Virus record (IMG/VR): IMGVR_UViG_3300032006_000031
Location: 1-37,842 of that record
DNA length: 37,842 nucleotides
Origin: a virus
Direction: 5' to 3' (one strand)
Positions within the stretch are counted from its first letter, which is position 1. Each line of letters begins with the position of its first letter. The position numbers were made by a program, and so were the translations under genes. Of the stretch, positions 10,467 through 36,196 are shown piece by piece. The notes under the pieces are model-generated. The model did no database searches. It was given only the letters and a program-made list of their open reading frames with translations, and was not told the DNA's origin.

Positions 10467-10886
10467 TTATTCTCCTTTACACTTACAATTATTATCTCCA
10501 CAAGTACATTTCTTCCCTGTGTTGTATATAGTATCAAAAGCATTAGCTCCTAATAAAGTAAGTTGATCTATCATGTTTGTTTGTATTTTGATAAGCATTT
10601 TTTCAAGCTCATCTTTTTGAGTTACTAAATGATCTACTTTAGAAGTTAATCCTTCGTTTTGTTTTTTAAGTTCGTTGACTTCATCTGGATTTCTTCCAAT
10701 AACAGTCATTATTACTACTGATAAAGATCCTACAATCATACCTATTATAGATACAACTACATCTTTATTCATGTTTGGTATTTCGTTATATGATAAGAAA
10801 ATTAGTATACCAATTACTAATAAAAATATACCAATCGCTCCTATATAATGTCTTAATTCTTTGGCAACGCCATTTGCTATTTTCAT
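10467..10886 (-). CDS. Two-TM membrane protein with coiled coil (holin-like candidate)
   Basis: A 139-residue membrane protein. Two hydrophobic helices lie at about 14-32 and 43-64, joined by a short polar loop. A charged coiled-coil region (about 67-103) follows, then a C-terminal cluster C-T-C-G-D-N-N-C-K-C (Cys 127, 129, 134, 136) that could bind a metal. Two TM helices next to an endolysin gene fit a class II holin, but the long coiled coil and Cys cluster are unusual for holins and could point to a virion-associated or spanin-like role. It starts by ATGA overlap with the giant ejection-protein gene. Confidence 0.65.
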   Translation of the reverse strand: MKIANGVAKELRHYIGAIGIFLLVIGILIFLSYNEIPNMNKDVVVSIIGMIVGSLSVVIMTVIGRNPDEVNELKKQNEGLTSKVDHLVTQKDELEKMLIKIQTNMIDQLTLLGANAFDTIYNTGKKCTCGDNNCKCKGE

Positions 10887-13800
10887 TTTCTTCTTGTTTT
10901 TTGTTTTCTTTTAGTTTTTCTAGTTGATTTTTTTCTAGTAATTTTATTATCTTCTATTTTATTAGGTTTTTTAACTCCTAATTCCCAGTCAGCCCAACCA
11001 GCAAGCATAGCAATTCTAGCCCACGCTTCATAATCTGAACTACTGGCTTTTCTTATATTATCAATTTTCTTAAATGCTCTATCTAAAGGAATGTTTGTAG
11101 TAGCAGCTATAACTTGACCTGCTGCTAAATAAGCCGGATTGTCTAATGAAAACCCTTTTTCCATTATTTCTTTTTTATTCCAAGAATAAGATCTACCTGC
11201 TGCTCTTAATTTACTTAATTTAGAAGACACGGGAGGGGATAACTGAGCTATTTCTTTAGTTAACACGTCTTGATATTTAGGTGATTTTTTATCTGCTTCT
11301 CTTGACAGTTTAATTCCTGTATTTTTTAATACTGAAAATATAGCACCACCAATACCAGCACCTCTTAATATACTATCTGCCATAGAATTAACTATATTAG
11401 CATATTTTTCTTCTCTTTTTTCTTTTTCTTCTTCATCATCTCCAAAGCCCATCGCAAACAAAGCTTGTTGCATTGCATTAAATAATAAATTTTGTGCTAT
11501 TCCATAATAAAATATCTTAGATATATTAGTCATTGTATCCCCTCGGCCATTCTTAAGATCACTAGCGGCTTTTTTGATTAATCTAGTGTATTGCATTGGA
11601 GTATTAGCAAAAGCTAATATAATACGTCCTAATGGCCCAGCTTGCTGTGCACTGATTCTATCTGGTCTACTTGATTGTTGAGCTTCTTCTGCTATTTCTC
11701 TAAAATCTATAAAAGCTTTATCTTCAGCTTCAGCCTTAGACATACCTTCTTTAGTATATTTTTTTATTCTGTTTCTATAAAAAGTAGAACCTCCTGAAGC
11801 AATAGCAAAACTATCTGCTATTTGTGTAGGTAAAAATCCAAGTCGTAGCATTTCACTTATAACTCCTCTTACCCCACCTTTTTTTGCCATATCTGCTATA
11901 TCAGCTTCATTTACATTTAACTTTAAACCATTTCTTCTATCTACTAAAAAGTCACTATTAAATAATGTTTTAAAATCTTTCCAAAATTGCGGTTGATTTG
12001 CAAAAGCTTTACCTGCTGCAAATATATTATTGTCTTTAAAATTAACAAAGTTAACGGCTGATATAGTTTGAAGCACTGCTGATCTAGTATTAAAAAACAT
12101 AATTGCACCAATAGAATTAGTTAACCAATCTGTTACTCTCCCTGTTAAAGAATCAGAGGTAAATTCCCTGTTTCTACCGGTACGCATTCTTTTTAATATG
12201 CCTTCTAAAGCTGTTCTATATCCTTTACCATAAGCGGCTTCTAATTTATTTAAATTTGCTTTTGAAAATATTTCATCTACATTATATTGCCATTGATCTA
12301 AATATTTAGCTCTTTTAATAGTGTTAATACCATCAATTAAATCGGTTGTAATATTTCCAGCTAACCAACCAAATTTAGGTGCAGGATAACTATCTCCTTT
12401 TTGTAATGCTATTAATTGATCTGCAAATGTAACTAACTCTGGTTTACTTTCAACAAAATCAATAAGTTCTTTTAAATCGGTTTTAGACATACCATCTGGC
12501 GTCATTCCTTGCTTATTCCAAATATAAGTTCTTATTGCTTGTTCTTGAGTGAAAGGTTCTCCTGGTAATTTTTTCTTTAAATTCTTAGGAACAATTTTTA
12601 ATTCTTTTTTAAGAGCTTTAAAATCATTCATAAGTGCTATTCTATCTCTTGATATATTATCCATAGCCCTTGCAAAAGGATCTAATAAATTCTTTTTATA
12701 CCAAGCCATTTGAGCATCTCCTAGTTTTCCTTTACCTAAAGTTTTATATAACAACCCTACAAAATCTTCAGCAGATGGTGGGACAAAGAAATTAAATTTA
12801 CCTTTATTAGCACCTACTACTTGTGCTTTAACATCAGAATAAACTTTATCAGCCCCAATACCAGTTTTATTTTCTAGTATCTTATTAAAGTCACCACTTA
12901 AATCTTGTGATTGACTAAATTTCATTTGAGCTTTTGATTGTTCATTGTCTAATTTTTTCATTTCAGACAATACTCTATTATTAAATATATTTCCTTTACT
13001 GAATTTTATTTTAACAGGTAATTCTTTATTATTTTTAACAGCCGCCTGTTTCAAAGACTTATTAAATGCATCATCAATAAAATTACCAGCATTGTCTACT
13101 CCATATATATCAAAAACCGTTTTTTTATTATTTAATTCGATACTGTTGGGATCAATTCCAAAATTATTACTTGCTACATCTAAATTAAAATATCTCGCCC
13201 ATATATTATCTTCTAAAGTCCATCCTTTTGGTGGAACTTGAGTATAATTATATTTTTCCCCAAAGGCTGTACCTTTTAATTTATTATCATCAATTTTAGA
13301 TAATACACCTTGAAAATAATTTCTTTCAATATTTTTAAAATTTTCTTTTACTTTACCCTGAATTGCGGATTTAAATAAATACTTAGCAACTAAACTAGCA
13401 GGTAAAGTATGTTCTTCTACAATTTCTCCTTTTAAATTTTTAGAAATAAATGTTATAGGCGCGGAAGTTCTTACAATATGTCCCATACCTTGACTAGTAG
13501 AACTTAATATAGCCGCTATAAATCTAGCATTATTTTTATTATCTTGTATCATTTTTTCAAAAATAATAAAAACATCTTCTAATCCTTTTAATTTAGCTTT
13601 ATTTTGTTTTTCTAATTTATTAGTTTGCCATAAATTTTTTAAAAAAGATGGTGTAATTTTTCTATTTTTTCCTGTACCTGTAGTATATCCTTGTCTTTGA
13701 GCTGCTTGTGCTATATTAAAGTTTTCTTTTTGAAACTTTTTTCCTTTCACTATTTTCATTATATCTTCTTTACTGGTAAAGAAAAAACCTCTTTTTGCTG

Positions 13801-16800
13801 CAGAATCTCCTGCGTTTGCAAAAGTACCAGTAGTTATAATACTTTTAGGAAAGTAATTTGGTATGTTTTCAGCAAACCATTTTTTAAAATCTTTTACATC
13901 ATTTTCATTTTTAGGATCTAAGGGTTGCTGACCTAGTTTTTTTACATAATTTTTCCATACAATTTTTTCATTTGAAAAATCTTTAGAATCATCTTGAGTA
14001 ACATTTTTAAATACATTTTCTTCATCTAATCTTTTACTAAATTTTAAACCAGGATCTCTATCTATTTGTTTACCTATTTTAGCTTCATCTGTTTTAGTTA
14101 CTTTTTGATCTTTTAATTTAGCAACAGCCTCACGTTTAGCTTTTACTTCAGGTTCTTTTATAACCTCCATAGTAGCATCTAAAGCCATAATTTCTCCAAG
14201 AGTTTCAGCTAAAGCATCTTTACGTGTACCTTTAGTAGATGTACCTACATCTGGGCCTAAGAAATAATTTACAAATTCTTGTTTATCAATAGATCTTTTC
14301 TTAAATATTTTTTTACCTTCTGGAGTTTTTTCTCTTTGCCCTGTATCTTCTGCAAATTGTCTAAATCTTTTATTTAAAATATCTTGAGGTAAAGCTTTAT
14401 AAATAGATTCAAAATTATCTTCTAAGAATTTTTTATAATTTTCTCTAGTACCTAATAATTCTGCTAAAGGAGTTTTAAGTTCTGTTCTATAAGCTTTTTG
14501 TAATGCTTGTTTAAATTCTTTAGATTCTATTTCAGGTAATTTAGTACCAAAAGTTTTTCTAACAGCTTGTTTAACTTTATCTATTAAGTCTTTATCTATT
14601 TTAAGATCTCTTCTTAGTTTTGATCTAATAGATTTTTCTTGTGCAGGCGTAGGCGTATCTTCAACAGCAACACTTTTAGCTTCAGTTACATCAGCTTCAA
14701 ATACATCTTTAGTTGCAGCTTCGCCTTTTTTAAATACATTACCAATTTTATTTTGTAATTGAGAATTAATCCAACCAGATAAACTATTATTTTGTTCAGG
14801 ATTAAAATTTCTAATATGAGGAATAAGTTCTGCTATAGTACCACTTATAAAATCTTCTTGTGAAAATCCAGGTGGTTTTTCCCTAGGTATTTTACTTTTA
14901 ATAAGGCCTTGTAAACCTTCATATAAATCTCCAATTACTTGATCTGATTTATTATTCCATTCTGTTTTACTTATAGTATATTTACCGTCTGTTTTAGGCC
15001 CAACTAATGCATCAATAGTTTCAGCTTTAGAAAACTTTTTAGCCCCTTCAGCTTGTCTGGTTTGTGTGGCAGATAAAATATCTTTACTTAGTTTACCTTC
15101 TTTTATGCTTTTACTATATTCTCGCATAAAATTATAAACGTCTTTACCTGTATCAAATTTAATATTACTAAAACCAACAGCTCTCAAAATAGGTGTTATA
15201 ACATCCATAAGTTTAGTAAACAAACTGTCATTGTACGTTATTTCTCCTAAAGCAATTGCATCAGAAAATTGAGTAATAAATTCATCAGGATTTTGTTCTA
15301 TATATTCTTTACTGTAATTTTCTTTTAATTTATTGTTTATTAAATCAACTTGATCTTTAGACATTTGAGCTTTAAACTGATCTAAAATTTTATTATCTAT
15401 TTTTGCAGCGTTAGCTAATATACCATGTAATAATTCATGACTTCCAACTGTTACTTTTTGTTTTTTAGCAGCTTCTACTTTGTCAATATATATTTTATTG
15501 GTTTTAGGATCATAAGCTCCTTCTACTCCACTTACTTTTTTACCTTTCTCATCAACAAAAACTTCATCAATAATTTGTTGATCTTCAGGTTTTGTACTAG
15601 TATCTAAAACTTGTACTTCAATACCTAAGTTTTGAGCACCTTCTTGAGCAAACTCAATATCTTTTTCTAGTTTAGAGTCTACAATAGATTTTCTAATATT
15701 TTCAATAGATTTATCTATTGATTTCATTTGATTGTTTATTCCTCTTAATGCATATCCAGCTTCTTTTTTAGATATAATATTTTTATTTCTTTTGTCTAAT
15801 ATTTCATTACCTTGGTTTCTTAATAAATCTTTTTCATCAATAAGCGTTTCAAGTTCATTTTTTTGAACAGGTGTTAATTGTTTAGCTATATTTTGATTAT
15901 TTTTTAAATAATTTCTTAATTGTTCTTCAACTCTATTTATTTCAAAATCTAAAGCATTTTTTACAACTTTACTAGAAGCGTTTGATTGTTGCGTTTTTAA
16001 ATTACTTAACTCTCTTAAAGAATTAAGAACAACTAGTTGTCCTTCTTTATCGTTTCTAAGAGCTCTATTAATTTTTCTTCCACCAATTCCTACTATACCA
16101 GCGCCAATAAATCCACCTAAATAAGCTTCCAATCCCTGGTCAGTTTGCATAGTGTCCCAAGCTATTTTAGCCGCTTCAGTTTTACTTTTACCTCTAGCTA
16201 ACTCAATATTCATTATTTCTGTTCCAAATTGACCCCACTCTGTTATTCCTTCTGTATTTTGAGTCAGTAAAAGCCCTACTGCACTTCTGCTTTTAAACGG
16301 AGCTTTAGTTATATATTTTGTAATACCTCTTAATCCCAAACGTTCCATAGCTACAGCTCCAACAGTTAAAACAGCCGGCGTTGTAAAGTCAGTTTCATTA
16401 TTCTGAGTCAACCGTTGTAAAGCATCTTCGTTATCCCCGTATAAATTTTTTGCTTTCTCTATATTAAAATCTGCAAACATTGGACCACCTATTTGAGGAA
16501 ACAAACTAGCGCCGCGAGTTACTATTGCTGGGCCTAAAGAAGATAATAATCCACTAACGAAATTAGCTGTACCACCAATTACATCAGCAACTCCAGCATC
16601 TTCATATCCTTCTTGTCCTAGCATTCCTCTAACACCAGGTACAAATCCTTTTCCTGTTTCTAAGATATCTTTTTCTTTATCTATAAACTTTTCAAATTCT
16701 TTTATCATTGCTCTATCAGCAAGTTCTCCTACCTCTATATCTGTACCACTATATTTAGTAATTATTTCTTCTCCACCTCGTTGTTTTTTACTTAATTCTT

Positions 16801-17251
16801 TCCATTTTTCTGGATCATTATCAAAAATAACTTCTTCTTCTGTATCTGGGTCTATATAAGCTATTGCAGATTCTGGGGCATCACCTATTAACCAATCAAC
16901 AGCATCTCCTCCAGCAACATTTTTTAACCAGTCTATACTACTAGCTTTAGCGCCATAATAAGCCTGCTCTAACTGGGTAGGTATGTTTAAAAAAGCTGCT
17001 GTAGTGTACAAACCCGATTCTACAAAAGTACCTAAAGGAGAAGTTTCTTCATTTTCTTTAGCTTGCTTTGAAACACCTACAAGTTCATCTACGTAACTAC
17101 TTAATTGTTCAATCTCAGGTTTATCTAAAGACACGTCCTCTACTTTATTTATACTAAATTCAGCTATATAATCTTCTACAGAAACATTCGAGTCAGCTGC
17201 GGCTTGTTCTATTTCTTCTAAAGAATAATATTCACCGTTTAATTCAAACAT
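10883..17251 (-). CDS. Giant polyvalent internal virion protein with metalloprotease motif
   Basis: A 2122-residue protein, the largest in the window, in the position of T7 gp16 (the large ejected core protein). The N-terminus has a short helical start (E-L-N-G-E-Y-Y-S-L-E-E-I) and hydrophobic Gly/Ala-rich stretches (about 230-400). Long charged helices fill about 400-540. A zinc metalloprotease motif H-E-L-L-H lies at 605-609, with an acidic D-E-F about 50 residues later as possible third ligand. A region near 790-850 resembles sigma-factor region 2 (F-N-P...L-S-G-W-I-N-S-Q-L). The C-terminal third has a conserved-looking core (G-P-L-G-R-I-I-L-A-F-A-N-T-P-M, about 1870) and the last 25 residues are almost all Lys, Arg and Thr. 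It is probably packaged and ejected into the cell. No RNA polymerase D-x-D-G-D motif is seen. Confidence 0.8.
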   Translation of the reverse strand: MFELNGEYYSLEEIEQAAADSNVSVEDYIAEFSINKVEDVSLDKPEIEQLSSYVDELVGVSKQAKENEETSPLGTFVESGLYTTAAFLNIPTQLEQAYYGAKASSIDWLKNVAGGDAVDWLIGDAPESAIAYIDPDTEEEVIFDNDPEKWKELSKKQRGGEEIITKYSGTDIEVGELADRAMIKEFEKFIDKEKDILETGKGFVPGVRGMLGQEGYEDAGVADVIGGTANFVSGLLSSLGPAIVTRGASLFPQIGGPMFADFNIEKAKNLYGDNEDALQRLTQNNETDFTTPAVLTVGAVAMERLGLRGITKYITKAPFKSRSAVGLLLTQNTEGITEWGQFGTEIMNIELARGKSKTEAAKIAWDTMQTDQGLEAYLGGFIGAGIVGIGGRKINRALRNDKEGQLVVLNSLRELSNLKTQQSNASSKVVKNALDFEINRVEEQLRNYLKNNQNIAKQLTPVQKNELETLIDEKDLLRNQGNEILDKRNKNIISKKEAGYALRGINNQMKSIDKSIENIRKSIVDSKLEKDIEFAQEGAQNLGIEVQVLDTSTKPEDQQIIDEVFVDEKGKKVSGVEGAYDPKTNKIYIDKVEAAKKQKVTVGSHELLHGILANAAKIDNKILDQFKAQMSKDQVDLINNKLKENYSKEYIEQNPDEFITQFSDAIALGEITYNDSLFTKLMDVITPILRAVGFSNIKFDTGKDVYNFMREYSKSIKEGKLSKDILSATQTRQAEGAKKFSKAETIDALVGPKTDGKYTISKTEWNNKSDQVIGDLYEGLQGLIKSKIPREKPPGFSQEDFISGTIAELIPHIRNFNPEQNNSLSGWINSQLQNKIGNVFKKGEAATKDVFEADVTEAKSVAVEDTPTPAQEKSIRSKLRRDLKIDKDLIDKVKQAVRKTFGTKLPEIESKEFKQALQKAYRTELKTPLAELLGTRENYKKFLEDNFESIYKALPQDILNKRFRQFAEDTGQREKTPEGKKIFKKRSIDKQEFVNYFLGPDVGTSTKGTRKDALAETLGEIMALDATMEVIKEPEVKAKREAVAKLKDQKVTKTDEAKIGKQIDRDPGLKFSKRLDEENVFKNVTQDDSKDFSNEKIVWKNYVKKLGQQPLDPKNENDVKDFKKWFAENIPNYFPKSIITTGTFANAGDSAAKRGFFFTSKEDIMKIVKGKKFQKENFNIAQAAQRQGYTTGTGKNRKITPSFLKNLWQTNKLEKQNKAKLKGLEDVFIIFEKMIQDNKNNARFIAAILSSTSQGMGHIVRTSAPITFISKNLKGEIVEEHTLPASLVAKYLFKSAIQGKVKENFKNIERNYFQGVLSKIDDNKLKGTAFGEKYNYTQVPPKGWTLEDNIWARYFNLDVASNNFGIDPNSIELNNKKTVFDIYGVDNAGNFIDDAFNKSLKQAAVKNNKELPVKIKFSKGNIFNNRVLSEMKKLDNEQSKAQMKFSQSQDLSGDFNKILENKTGIGADKVYSDVKAQVVGANKGKFNFFVPPSAEDFVGLLYKTLGKGKLGDAQMAWYKKNLLDPFARAMDNISRDRIALMNDFKALKKELKIVPKNLKKKLPGEPFTQEQAIRTYIWNKQGMTPDGMSKTDLKELIDFVESKPELVTFADQLIALQKGDSYPAPKFGWLAGNITTDLIDGINTIKRAKYLDQWQYNVDEIFSKANLNKLEAAYGKGYRTALEGILKRMRTGRNREFTSDSLTGRVTDWLTNSIGAIMFFNTRSAVLQTISAVNFVNFKDNNIFAAGKAFANQPQFWKDFKTLFNSDFLVDRRNGLKLNVNEADIADMAKKGGVRGVISEMLRLGFLPTQIADSFAIASGGSTFYRNRIKKYTKEGMSKAEAEDKAFIDFREIAEEAQQSSRPDRISAQQAGPLGRIILAFANTPMQYTRLIKKAASDLKNGRGDTMTNISKIFYYGIAQNLLFNAMQQALFAMGFGDDEEEKEKREEKYANIVNSMADSILRGAGIGGAIFSVLKNTGIKLSREADKKSPKYQDVLTKEIAQLSPPVSSKLSKLRAAGRSYSWNKKEIMEKGFSLDNPAYLAAGQVIAATTNIPLDRAFKKIDNIRKASSSDYEAWARIAMLAGWADWELGVKKPNKIEDNKITRKKSTRKTKRKQKTRRK

Positions 17252-33784: not shown

Positions 33785-36196
33785 TTAAGATGGACTAAAT
33801 TGCTCAAGTCCAAAACCATCTAAATTATCATTACCAGCAGATTCAAAATCTTTAGGTAATAAATCATTTTGTCTTTGGTCTATAAGTTCACTTTGTTGTG
33901 TGCCCTGTATTTTTACTCTTTGATCTTTACGATCTTCTATTGCCGCTTCTTTTTGTTGTTGTACTTGACCTTGTAATCTAGCTAATTCCATGTCATAATT
34001 AAACTCTTCGGCCATTAATTGTTTTTTAATCTCCGCTTCTCTTTCCATTTTAGCAATTTCAAACTGAGATTTTGCTTGTTCAATTTGAATTTCAGTTTCT
34101 GCTAATGCTTGATTTTTTTGTACTTCTGCTAACGCTGCTTTTTCGGCTGACTCAGCGTTTGCAGCAGCTTGTGCTTCAATATTTTCTAATTGTTGCGCTC
34201 TATCAAGTTCTTGTTTTTTCTTTTGTCTTGCTTTTAAACTTTGATTAGCAAGTTTTATATTTCTAATTTCTCTTAAATCAATAGCATCTTCAAGACTAAT
34301 ATTTTGTTGTTGAAGTGCCATTTGTATATTTTGTTCTAAATTAACTTTTTCTTCTTCTTCAGGTTCTAATTCTAAAAATATACCAAAATCATGTAAACTT
34401 AATTTTTTAATTTCATTAAGAGTATGAGTATTAAATGTATTGATACTTGTCATTAAACTTTGTTGAGTTAATGGAAATTGCAACATATCTGAAACTCTTA
34501 AACTAATATTTTCACAAACCCTTACGGTTAAATACATTAAAGATTGTAATATATGTTTTGTAGCTGTATTAGAGTTAGCGGCTGCTAATTTTTGTAAGCC
34601 CACTAATGAATCTTTTGCAGGTGTACTACCATCTCTTGCTTCATTTAATCCAGTGACATCTCTTATCATTTGTAAATAATATTGATAAGTTTGAATCATA
34701 GATTGAATCTTACCCATACCATTTGAAGTTTGTAATTCTTGTACTGGTACTTTTCCTCTATTTAATTCACCATCTTGTGTTAGAGATCTACCTACAATAC
34801 TACCAGTTTGAAAATACATATTCAATGCTTCTGCTGGGTTATAATTTGTACCATTACCTAAATCAACTTCTGCTAAACCATCAACATCTAAATACACACC
34901 ATCTGGTACCATTTTAGACAATACTTGTTGAAGTTTTAAATGCGTTAATTGAATCATATCAGCAAATCCAATAGTTTTTTCAACTATAGAATTAATACGA
35001 CCTTGATACATACGAGGCGATGTAATAACATAATTCATGTTAACTTTAGTAGTATCACTGTAAGGTCTAGTCATATTTTCACTTAATTCCCATTTAAGTA
35101 AATTACCACCTAAACCTAGTACTTTTGCCCCACAATATAATACTTCTATTGATCTTGAAGCTCTTTCAAAATTATCATTTGGTGGAGGATTAAAAGTATC
35201 TGGTTTTTCTAATGTTTTTTCTAATCCTTGTTCAGTTTGTTTTATTTTAAAAACTTGATCTTGATATGTTTTATATTCAAAATATAATACTTGAACTTGA
35301 TCTTGTGTTTCTTGTCCCCACCAAGTATTCTCTACATAAGAATTTCTGCCAGGATATTTTTGTATTTCTTCTAACTCACTATCAGTTAACCAAGGAAATT
35401 GTCTTTTAAGTTCTGATAATGACATATTTTTTACTTCTCCTACGTAATATATATCTTCAAAATTAGGATCATCTGTATATGAATAAACTATATTAGCAGG
35501 GTTTACATAATCAACAGTTATACCTTCTGATAAATTAAAATCAGTTTTAACACAACCCATTCCTAAAACAGTTAAATCATAAGCTAACCTTTTTTTAGTT
35601 TGATCATATTTATTATAATCTAAAATATTATTAATTGCTTCTTCTTCTGCAATTTCTATACTTTGTTTATAATTAAGTTGCATGTAAAGATCTAACTCAT
35701 TTTCATCTTCAGGTAATGATTCTGGATCAGCTGATGAATAAAAATTTTTTCCAGTTAATTGATTTAATTGTTCTATTTCAGCTCTGTTTTGAATATCTCT
35801 TAAAGCATTAGATGCATAATTAGTTCTTTGTTTAGTTGCAAAAGGATCTGTTGCATAAGATTTTATTTCATAACCTTTGTCAGTCATTCCATTTACTACT
35901 ATATCTACAAATTTTGATAAAATTGGAACAGGTTTCCAATCTAAATTAAGATAAGATAAATCTCCGTTTATAGCTAATTCGTCTTTATATTTTTGCACAG
36001 GTTGTTCTCCTCTAGCGTATAATCTTAATCTATTAAAATTTTGAAAGTTACTTATAAAACGGTTTTGTCCGCTGGAGTTTCTAAACCATTCATGCTCAAT
36101 AGCTTGAGCTACTTGTAGTCCATACTCTCTAGATTTTTTCTCTTCTTCAGGTACCACCTGATCAGGGAAAGAACTATTATAGTTAATCTTAACCAT
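33785..36196 (-). CDS. Portal protein with long coiled-coil C-terminus
   Basis: An 803-residue portal, the dodecameric ring through which DNA is packaged and ejected. Portal-like features are L-R-L-Y-A-R-G-E-Q (about 52-60), D-W-K-P-V-P-I-L-S-K-F-V-D-I-V-V-N-G-M (85-103), a mid-region with T-V-L-G-M-G-C-V-K-T-D, and helices with V-T-G-L-N-E-A-R-D-G-S. The last 170 residues are a Gln/Ala/Glu-rich coiled coil (A-L-A-E-V-Q-K-N-Q-A-L-A-E), which likely builds a barrel or crown inside the head. It begins immediately after the terminase stop (TAG-ATG), so the two are probably coupled. The length is typical of podovirus portals with a barrel. Confidence 0.85.
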   Translation of the reverse strand: MVKINYNSSFPDQVVPEEEKKSREYGLQVAQAIEHEWFRNSSGQNRFISNFQNFNRLRLYARGEQPVQKYKDELAINGDLSYLNLDWKPVPILSKFVDIVVNGMTDKGYEIKSYATDPFATKQRTNYASNALRDIQNRAEIEQLNQLTGKNFYSSADPESLPEDENELDLYMQLNYKQSIEIAEEEAINNILDYNKYDQTKKRLAYDLTVLGMGCVKTDFNLSEGITVDYVNPANIVYSYTDDPNFEDIYYVGEVKNMSLSELKRQFPWLTDSELEEIQKYPGRNSYVENTWWGQETQDQVQVLYFEYKTYQDQVFKIKQTEQGLEKTLEKPDTFNPPPNDNFERASRSIEVLYCGAKVLGLGGNLLKWELSENMTRPYSDTTKVNMNYVITSPRMYQGRINSIVEKTIGFADMIQLTHLKLQQVLSKMVPDGVYLDVDGLAEVDLGNGTNYNPAEALNMYFQTGSIVGRSLTQDGELNRGKVPVQELQTSNGMGKIQSMIQTYQYYLQMIRDVTGLNEARDGSTPAKDSLVGLQKLAAANSNTATKHILQSLMYLTVRVCENISLRVSDMLQFPLTQQSLMTSINTFNTHTLNEIKKLSLHDFGIFLELEPEEEEKVNLEQNIQMALQQQNISLEDAIDLREIRNIKLANQSLKARQKKKQELDRAQQLENIEAQAAANAESAEKAALAEVQKNQALAETEIQIEQAKSQFEIAKMEREAEIKKQLMAEEFNYDMELARLQGQVQQQKEAAIEDRKDQRVKIQGTQQSELIDQRQNDLLPKDFESAGNDNLDGFGLEQFSPS

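Follow-up and report, generated by a model that had tools for sequence, protein, structure and literature searches.

The window analysed here, a viral record of 37.8 kb (IMGVR_UViG_3300032006_000031), carries a gene for a giant protein of 2122 amino acids, P0001 (Table 1). The open reading frame (ORF) is real and lies on the minus strand; an earlier description of this DNA, hereafter the sequence-only reading, had given its extent and left the strand unstated, and the plus strand across 10883-17251 is full of stops. P0001 was found to be a mosaic composed of a variable N-terminal half, a zincin, a sigma-70 region 2-like (sigma2-like) domain, two further modules without an assignment and a near-constant core. 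The sigma2-like domain, located directly after the zincin, was overlooked in the sequence-only reading and bears directly on its vague guess that an ejected protease might act on an "RNA polymerase factor". The interpretation developed below, to which we assign a probability of roughly 45%, is that P0001 is an ejected giant with a zincin and an RNA polymerase-directed sigma2-like domain.

Table 1. Positions of the giant protein, its domains and the neighbouring genes in the window.
Feature	Position	Strand	Basis
Giant protein P0001, 2122 aa	10883..17251	-	ORF call
Three weakly hydrophobic stretches, aa 219-391	16079..16597	-	Kyte-Doolittle
Zincin-type metalloprotease domain, aa 530-696	15164..15664	-	Model, fold matches, profile
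HELLH, aa 605-609	15425..15439	-	Motif search, shuffles, alignment
E657, candidate third zinc ligand	15281..15283	-	Alignment and model
Sigma-70 region 2-like domain, aa 733-849	14705..15055	-	Profiles, models, order
Conserved C-terminal core, aa 1440-2090	10982..12934	-	Alignment; weak homology to Gundel_1 gp074
Portal protein, ties window to flavophages	33785..36196	-	Matches in phage records
596-aa protein directly upstream of giant, overlapping it by 1 nt; occupies the position that gp100 has in Cellulophaga phage phi40:1	17251..19041	-
139-aa protein, 4-nt overlap with giant, weak Rz-like spanin match	10467..10886	-

P0001 belongs to a large family, with at least 588 matching stretches found in one scan of viral contigs. 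The relatives used here comprise 47 loci from one search and 80 rows of these stretches, three loci (L010, L019, L027) being common to both; together with the window's own locus and four stretches of named phage records they form a set of 129 loci. The giant includes the region upstream of the core in 118 of the 129; some contigs contribute more than one of these loci, and the 118 sequences include 96 distinct ones. Of 36 relatives, 30 were aligned with the window in A1 and A2; alignment A4 of the sigma-like module comprises 81 of 110 modules after removal of near-duplicates of more than 90% identity. Alignment A5 (62 zincin rows) drew for the most part on rows in which the motif is complete; invariance in A5 was therefore disregarded, and all conservation counts come from a census of the 118 rows. 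Two loci (L040, with frames of 2058 and 575 aa, and L094) have the giant split into two frames, through a frameshift or an assembly error.

The full P0001 sequence gave no significant match in Pfam, PHROGs or the PDB by sequence and nothing at 1e-5 by tblastn in phage records, where the sole match at a loose limit was Gundel_1 (E 0.002). The C-terminal core announced by the sequence-only reading was borne out, with columns averaging 68% identity when the window was aligned with 21 of the 36 relatives that the family alignment then comprised (22 sequences in all), and probably serves packaging or assembly. The hydrophobic N-terminal segments fared less well: three stretches exist (219-243, 289-307 and 373-391), and with Kyte-Doolittle means of 1.1-1.25 over 19 residues they are weaker than typical transmembrane helices. 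For the module at 12932-13684 (about aa 1190-1440), which is conserved in part and includes an EEHTLPASL stretch, no known family was found.

The HELLH motif of the sequence-only reading is the only HExxH in P0001, a protein with just five histidines. Composition predicts 0.0009 such motifs, and only five of 5000 shuffled sequences contained one; the motif is not due to chance. A zincin profile detected the domain in all 118 giants (108 with an earlier profile and stricter filters). The four ligand and base positions read H-E-H-E in 107 rows, E-E-H-E in eight and Q-E-H-E in three, or 86, six and three of the 95 distinct domain sequences, whereas the Glu, His and Glu positions, E657 included, are invariant in all 118 aligned rows. 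The EExxH and QExxH giants (L001, L002, L016, L038, L039, L062, L074, L095 and L117 among the loci) may have an altered metal site or have lost enzymatic activity.

The possibility that HELLH lies in a fold without zincin geometry was checked with a structure model of aa 530-1090 built from 31 sequences. The block corresponding to about aa 530-699, with a predicted local distance difference test (pLDDT) score of 73-94, is predicted to have an N-terminal helix (model residues 2-12) and a three-stranded sheet (16-20, 49-52 and 57-61), with HELLH on a core helix (73-86) and E657 on the following helix (127-138). The model speaks against such a fold; it shows the helix-sheet order of the zincin-like metallopeptidase (MPTase) definition, as far as the available text of Iyer et al. 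(PMC5512222) goes. VIA-align matched this part of the model to lethal factor, PPEP-3, IrrE (Z 5.5) and a mycobacterial regulator at Z 5.1-6.4; a relation to lethal factor is likewise reported for the N4-type domain in the available part of PMC5512222. Among the zincin domains of 62 relatives, Pfam matched Peptidase_M78 (PF06114) in 16 at E 1 or less, with 1.1e-7 as the best value, and SprT-like and DUF3267 in seven each; the window's own domain had no PF06114 match at E 1 or less. Nothing significant was found with the zincin profile among PDB sequences, the best being two zinc endoproteases (E 0.33-0.34). The seven matches found by tblastn with a relative's zincin in phage records (E 5-7) are too weak to count alone; three of them lie in the virion RNA polymerase of a Vibrio phage or in an unnamed twin of it. 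Because of the conserved motif with its invariant E657, the modelled helices and sheet and the matches to lethal factor, IrrE and PPEP-3, we regard a zincin-type fold as almost certain.

The same profile also detects a zincin, unannotated in the record, in elemo gp18 (L052, 34202 onward), an Elemovirus giant labelled 'structural protein' (E 5.8e-11). The giants of Gundel_1 (L049, 15097) and ctfjg026 (L050, 36929 onward) each contain an HEFGH motif, perhaps of another zincin type, and were not matched by the profile.

The domain behind the zincin resembles region 2 of sigma-70 factors by both profile and predicted fold. A 31-row profile searched against 177,635 PDB sequences gave seven matches up to E 10, of which the first five are sigma factors (E 0.038-0.61). 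With an 81-row profile lacking the window, sigma factors rank one to four in the same set (SigB 3.4e-5, WhiG 0.0044, then 0.047 and 0.065) and seven of the 12 listed matches are sigma factors or T4 gp55, chains of which are found among the fold matches as well; a profile of the core, searched as a control, found no sigma factor in the PDB. In the window model, Foldseek placed sigma domain 2 on top (8b3z_B, probability 0.99, template modelling (TM) score 0.73 on the target, root-mean-square deviation 2.4 Å over 76 columns), and the VIA-align matches at model residues 204-336 are sigma factors with Z up to 7.3. A separate model of the module of relative L021, built from 81 rows (block pLDDT 92-97 at residues 51-140), matched sigma factors in all 50 matches listed by VIA-align, the top one being E. 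coli sigma70 (Z 8.7, 2.8 Å, 90 residues). Comparison by hhalign with a mixed profile of 13 sigma sequences (five from E. coli and eight of 15 phage sigmas) gave P 4.7e-4 and a probability of 32% over 62 columns in region 2 register, against P 0.14-0.89 for seven other modules of the giants.

The placement of the module is strict, directly behind the zincin in all 111 giants having both, and the module profiles found no matches in reversed giants. Only three matches to the sigma-like profile occurred in 1115 other ORFs; two were taken as pieces of giants (L010 and L094) and the third is an unexplained 179-aa ORF in L109 (E 0.003). Six of 12 held-out loci from metagenome-assembled genomes (MAGs) were long enough for comparison, and in all six an HExxH zincin is present and the A4 profile detects the module (the s2b profile does so in four of six). 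Conserved columns comprise an aromatic residue at an FDP motif (82 of 82 rows), a second aromatic nine residues after the FDP proline (74 of 82) and an acidic residue, E or D (61 of 82). We take these to correspond to F419, Y430 and D403 of sigma70; the second aromatic would then sit where sigma70 presumably has a DNA-melting aromatic, and the acidic residue at a position that we assume to face the beta' clamp. The models predict the region 2 fold, and on all of this evidence the domain very probably has it.

In the window, the terminase, portal, several head or virion proteins, an 1850-aa protein, the 596-aa protein, the giant, the spanin-like protein and an M15 endolysin are encoded in one direction on the minus strand, with recombination (ERF), primase-helicase, MazG and ribonucleotide reductase genes on the plus strand. 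The portal matches 87 phage records, namely Flavobacterium (68), Cellulophaga (15), Tenacibaculum (2), Maribacter (1) and an unclassified Caudoviricetes (1); the phage, which we take to be short-tailed, therefore probably infects Bacteroidota. Relatives also occur on 12 MAG contigs classed as bacterial or archaeal, and five of these bear the label Flavobacteriaceae, Cryomorphaceae, Saprospiraceae or Flavobacteriales; such labels of phage contigs are weak evidence. Isolated flavophages have a head operon that ends with a 450-550-aa protein and then a giant, and in the uncultured record ctfjg026 a 644-aa protein is followed by the giant at the same place. No significant sequence similarity was found between the window's 596-aa protein and phi40:1 gp100. 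The 596-aa protein has a weak match to Pfam SSSPR-51 (E 0.0008, below the cut-off).

For both gp100 and gp101 of Cellulophaga phage phi40:1, the record states 'annotation based on experimental MS/MS proteomics analysis' (MS/MS, tandem mass spectrometry). The P0001 core matches gp074 of Tenacibaculum phage Gundel_1 (E 1.2e-8), which in turn matches phi38:1 gp101 (E 2.4e-16), a protein 99.9% identical to phi40:1 gp101; through this chain the giants form one mosaic family with one member found in virions. Another giant at the same place, phi19:3 gp129, is annotated 'hypothetical', so virion detection among the giants is not universal, and the available text of PMC8776804 and PMC7077304 gives no proteomics of flavophage giants. 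The packaging and ejection proposed in the sequence-only reading are accordingly supported by position, in a late operon, and by the homologous mosaic giants of isolated flavophages. We consider it likely, by way of this position and the phi40:1 counterpart, that P0001 is packaged and ejected.

Several observations weigh against a polymerase-directed role. The Pfam family Sigma70_r2 (PF04542) matches P0001 below threshold, at 13.5-19.3 bits against a cut-off of 24 (aa 776-836, E 0.063 for the whole protein and 0.003 for a fragment; E 3.2e-5 and 19.3 bits in a one-genome search), and at E 1 or less it matches one of 31 modules (the window itself) and one of 81. By hhalign against the phages' own sigmas alone the module is not significant, with P 0.044 and one control better at 0.025. 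Foldseek E-values all exceed 0.1, and a Z of 7-9 for a helical bundle can, by the tool's own note, reflect a common arrangement. Sigma regions 3 and 4 were not found in P0001 by Pfam, and the module was not detected in six flavophage or related records. The first His of the zincin is lost in 11 of the 118 giants, and the case for packaging of P0001 is indirect. Finally, separate phage sigma factors of about 250 aa are common, and transcription may therefore not need the sigma2-like domain. In the records of 37 relatives PF04542 is found on a separate ORF of this size (a 95-aa frame in one record) and never on the giant, and a second set of 25 records has it on the giant in one case (L055's record, E 5.5e-4); within the window it matches the giant only. 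A separate sigma factor occurs in 32 of 59 distinct records (three shared between the two sets; one being the 95-aa frame), and since none of the records is classed at 90% or more completeness, its absence from the others means little.

The PF04542 match was at first judged a likely chance match, from the separate sigma ORFs and a negative hhalign comparison with 37 sequences; this judgement was reversed because of the deeper alignments, the PDB profile searches and the two models. Identity as a full sigma factor was rejected. As the match falls below the Pfam cut-off and neither region 3 nor 4 is recognised, we call the domain sigma2-like and not a sigma factor. When the module of one relative was compared with phage records by tblastn, the single match was a sigma-70 factor, at an E of 0.4 that is too weak alone. 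The SID...IAD stretch behind the domain has a weak likeness to the region 3.2 linker (E 1.8). The separate sigma factors of relatives (L003, L022, L044, L002, L017 and others) have a linker SID...IPD, somewhat like the SID...IAD of the giants.

In sigma factors, region 2 is the part that binds the -10 element and the beta' clamp helices. The simplest role of an ejected sigma2-like domain would be to hold the polymerase at the entering DNA. In the mechanism that we propose, the giant would be packaged as an internal (ejection) protein and leave the virion with the DNA. Its sigma-70 region 1.2/2-like domain would dock on the beta' clamp helices of the host RNA polymerase, either bringing the polymerase to the entering genome or blocking host sigma, and the zincin would separate domains from the giant chain or cut a protein in the neighbourhood of the polymerase. 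Contact between the domain and RNA polymerase is proposed tentatively. The zincin most likely serves to divide the chain, the role suggested for polyvalent proteins in the available text of Iyer et al. (PMC5512222), and may instead have a host target; we give even odds to cleavage of the giant itself rather than of a host protein.

The sigma2-like fold may instead be a reused helical scaffold serving as a linker or in DNA binding or packaging, in which case P0001 would be an ejection protein of the usual kind, its zincin would process the protein itself and the polymerase would be uninvolved. Divergence beyond the Pfam cut-off, the lack of any other sigma region among those found, the separate sigma in 32 of 59 records and the variation of polymerase-facing positions, except the acidic one that we presume to match D403 (61 of 82), all favour such reuse; the conserved aromatics (82 of 82 and 74 of 82) and the strict place behind the protease (111 of 111) speak against it. 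We consider this a plausible minority view.

The remaining alternatives concern the protease. IrrE/ImmA-type (M78) proteases cut transcription repressors, and the zincin could be an injected anti-host protease that cuts a repressor, an anti-sigma factor or a polymerase-associated protein to which the sigma2-like domain targets it. The adjacency of the two domains, the Peptidase_M78 matches of 16 of 62 relatives and the fold match to IrrE are consistent with this, although the window's domain lacks an M78 match at E 1 or less, no substrate is known and Iyer et al. favour self-processing in the part of PMC5512222 available; on balance we think it rather unlikely. Less likely again is a protease that, throughout the family or in some of its members, is inactive and has a structural role, a situation with some resemblance to the HExxH domain in the N4 virion RNA polymerase. 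That enzyme carries HExxH in its C1 domain (available text of PMC12633501) and is packaged unprocessed (available text of PMC5512222), and Glu or Gln replaces the first His in 11 of 118 rows of our census; the full motif is nevertheless kept in the other 107, the window included.

P0001 combines several distinct domains in one chain and is encoded among late virion genes, as expected of a polyvalent protein. The polyvalent zincin-like MPTase proteins of PMC5512222 are likewise giant multidomain products of late genes with a zincin; in the available text the zincin domain is common and the jump-starting of transcription a proposed theme, but the word 'sigma' is absent, whereas here a sigma2-like domain follows the zincin. 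The N4 virion RNA polymerase gp50 is also a giant, ejected protein with an HExxH domain that acts on early transcription (PMC12633501, in the text available). In P0001, by contrast, no polymerase domain was found by Pfam, and it would borrow the host polymerase. The flavophage giants (phi40:1 and phi38:1 gp101, Gundel gp074 and elemo gp18) sit at the corresponding place, behind the head genes and a protein of 450-550 aa, and the P0001 core matches Gundel gp074 and the zincin profile elemo gp18; they differ in that no sigma-like module was detected in the six records examined. T4 gp55 has a sigma2-type domain in common with the giant, but we take it to be a phage sigma that consists of little more than region 2 and acts in late transcription as a free factor, outside any ejected giant.

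Searches of the open-licence literature found no zincin-bearing polyvalent protein reported to have a sigma-70-type domain, and the available text of PMC5512222, PMC12633501, PMC7824862, PMC12282133, PMC8776804 and PMC7077304 does not describe a sigma domain in an ejected protein. Zincin-bearing polyvalent proteins themselves are already known. If the domain acts on RNA polymerase, a long-standing question could be tested in these phages, namely how transcription begins at the first moment when no virion RNA polymerase is known for the phage, and perhaps also how DNA is pulled in at that moment. A virion-delivered sigma-like factor would be a further route of takeover at time zero, beside virion RNA polymerases and ADP-ribosylation of the host polymerase. 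More speculatively, a whole lineage of marine Bacteroidota phages might package a sigma-like domain that captures the polymerase or unseats host sigma before phage expression, with the zincin freeing the domain or clearing a polymerase-bound host regulator. The phage may in this way take control of the host's transcription machinery as soon as infection begins.
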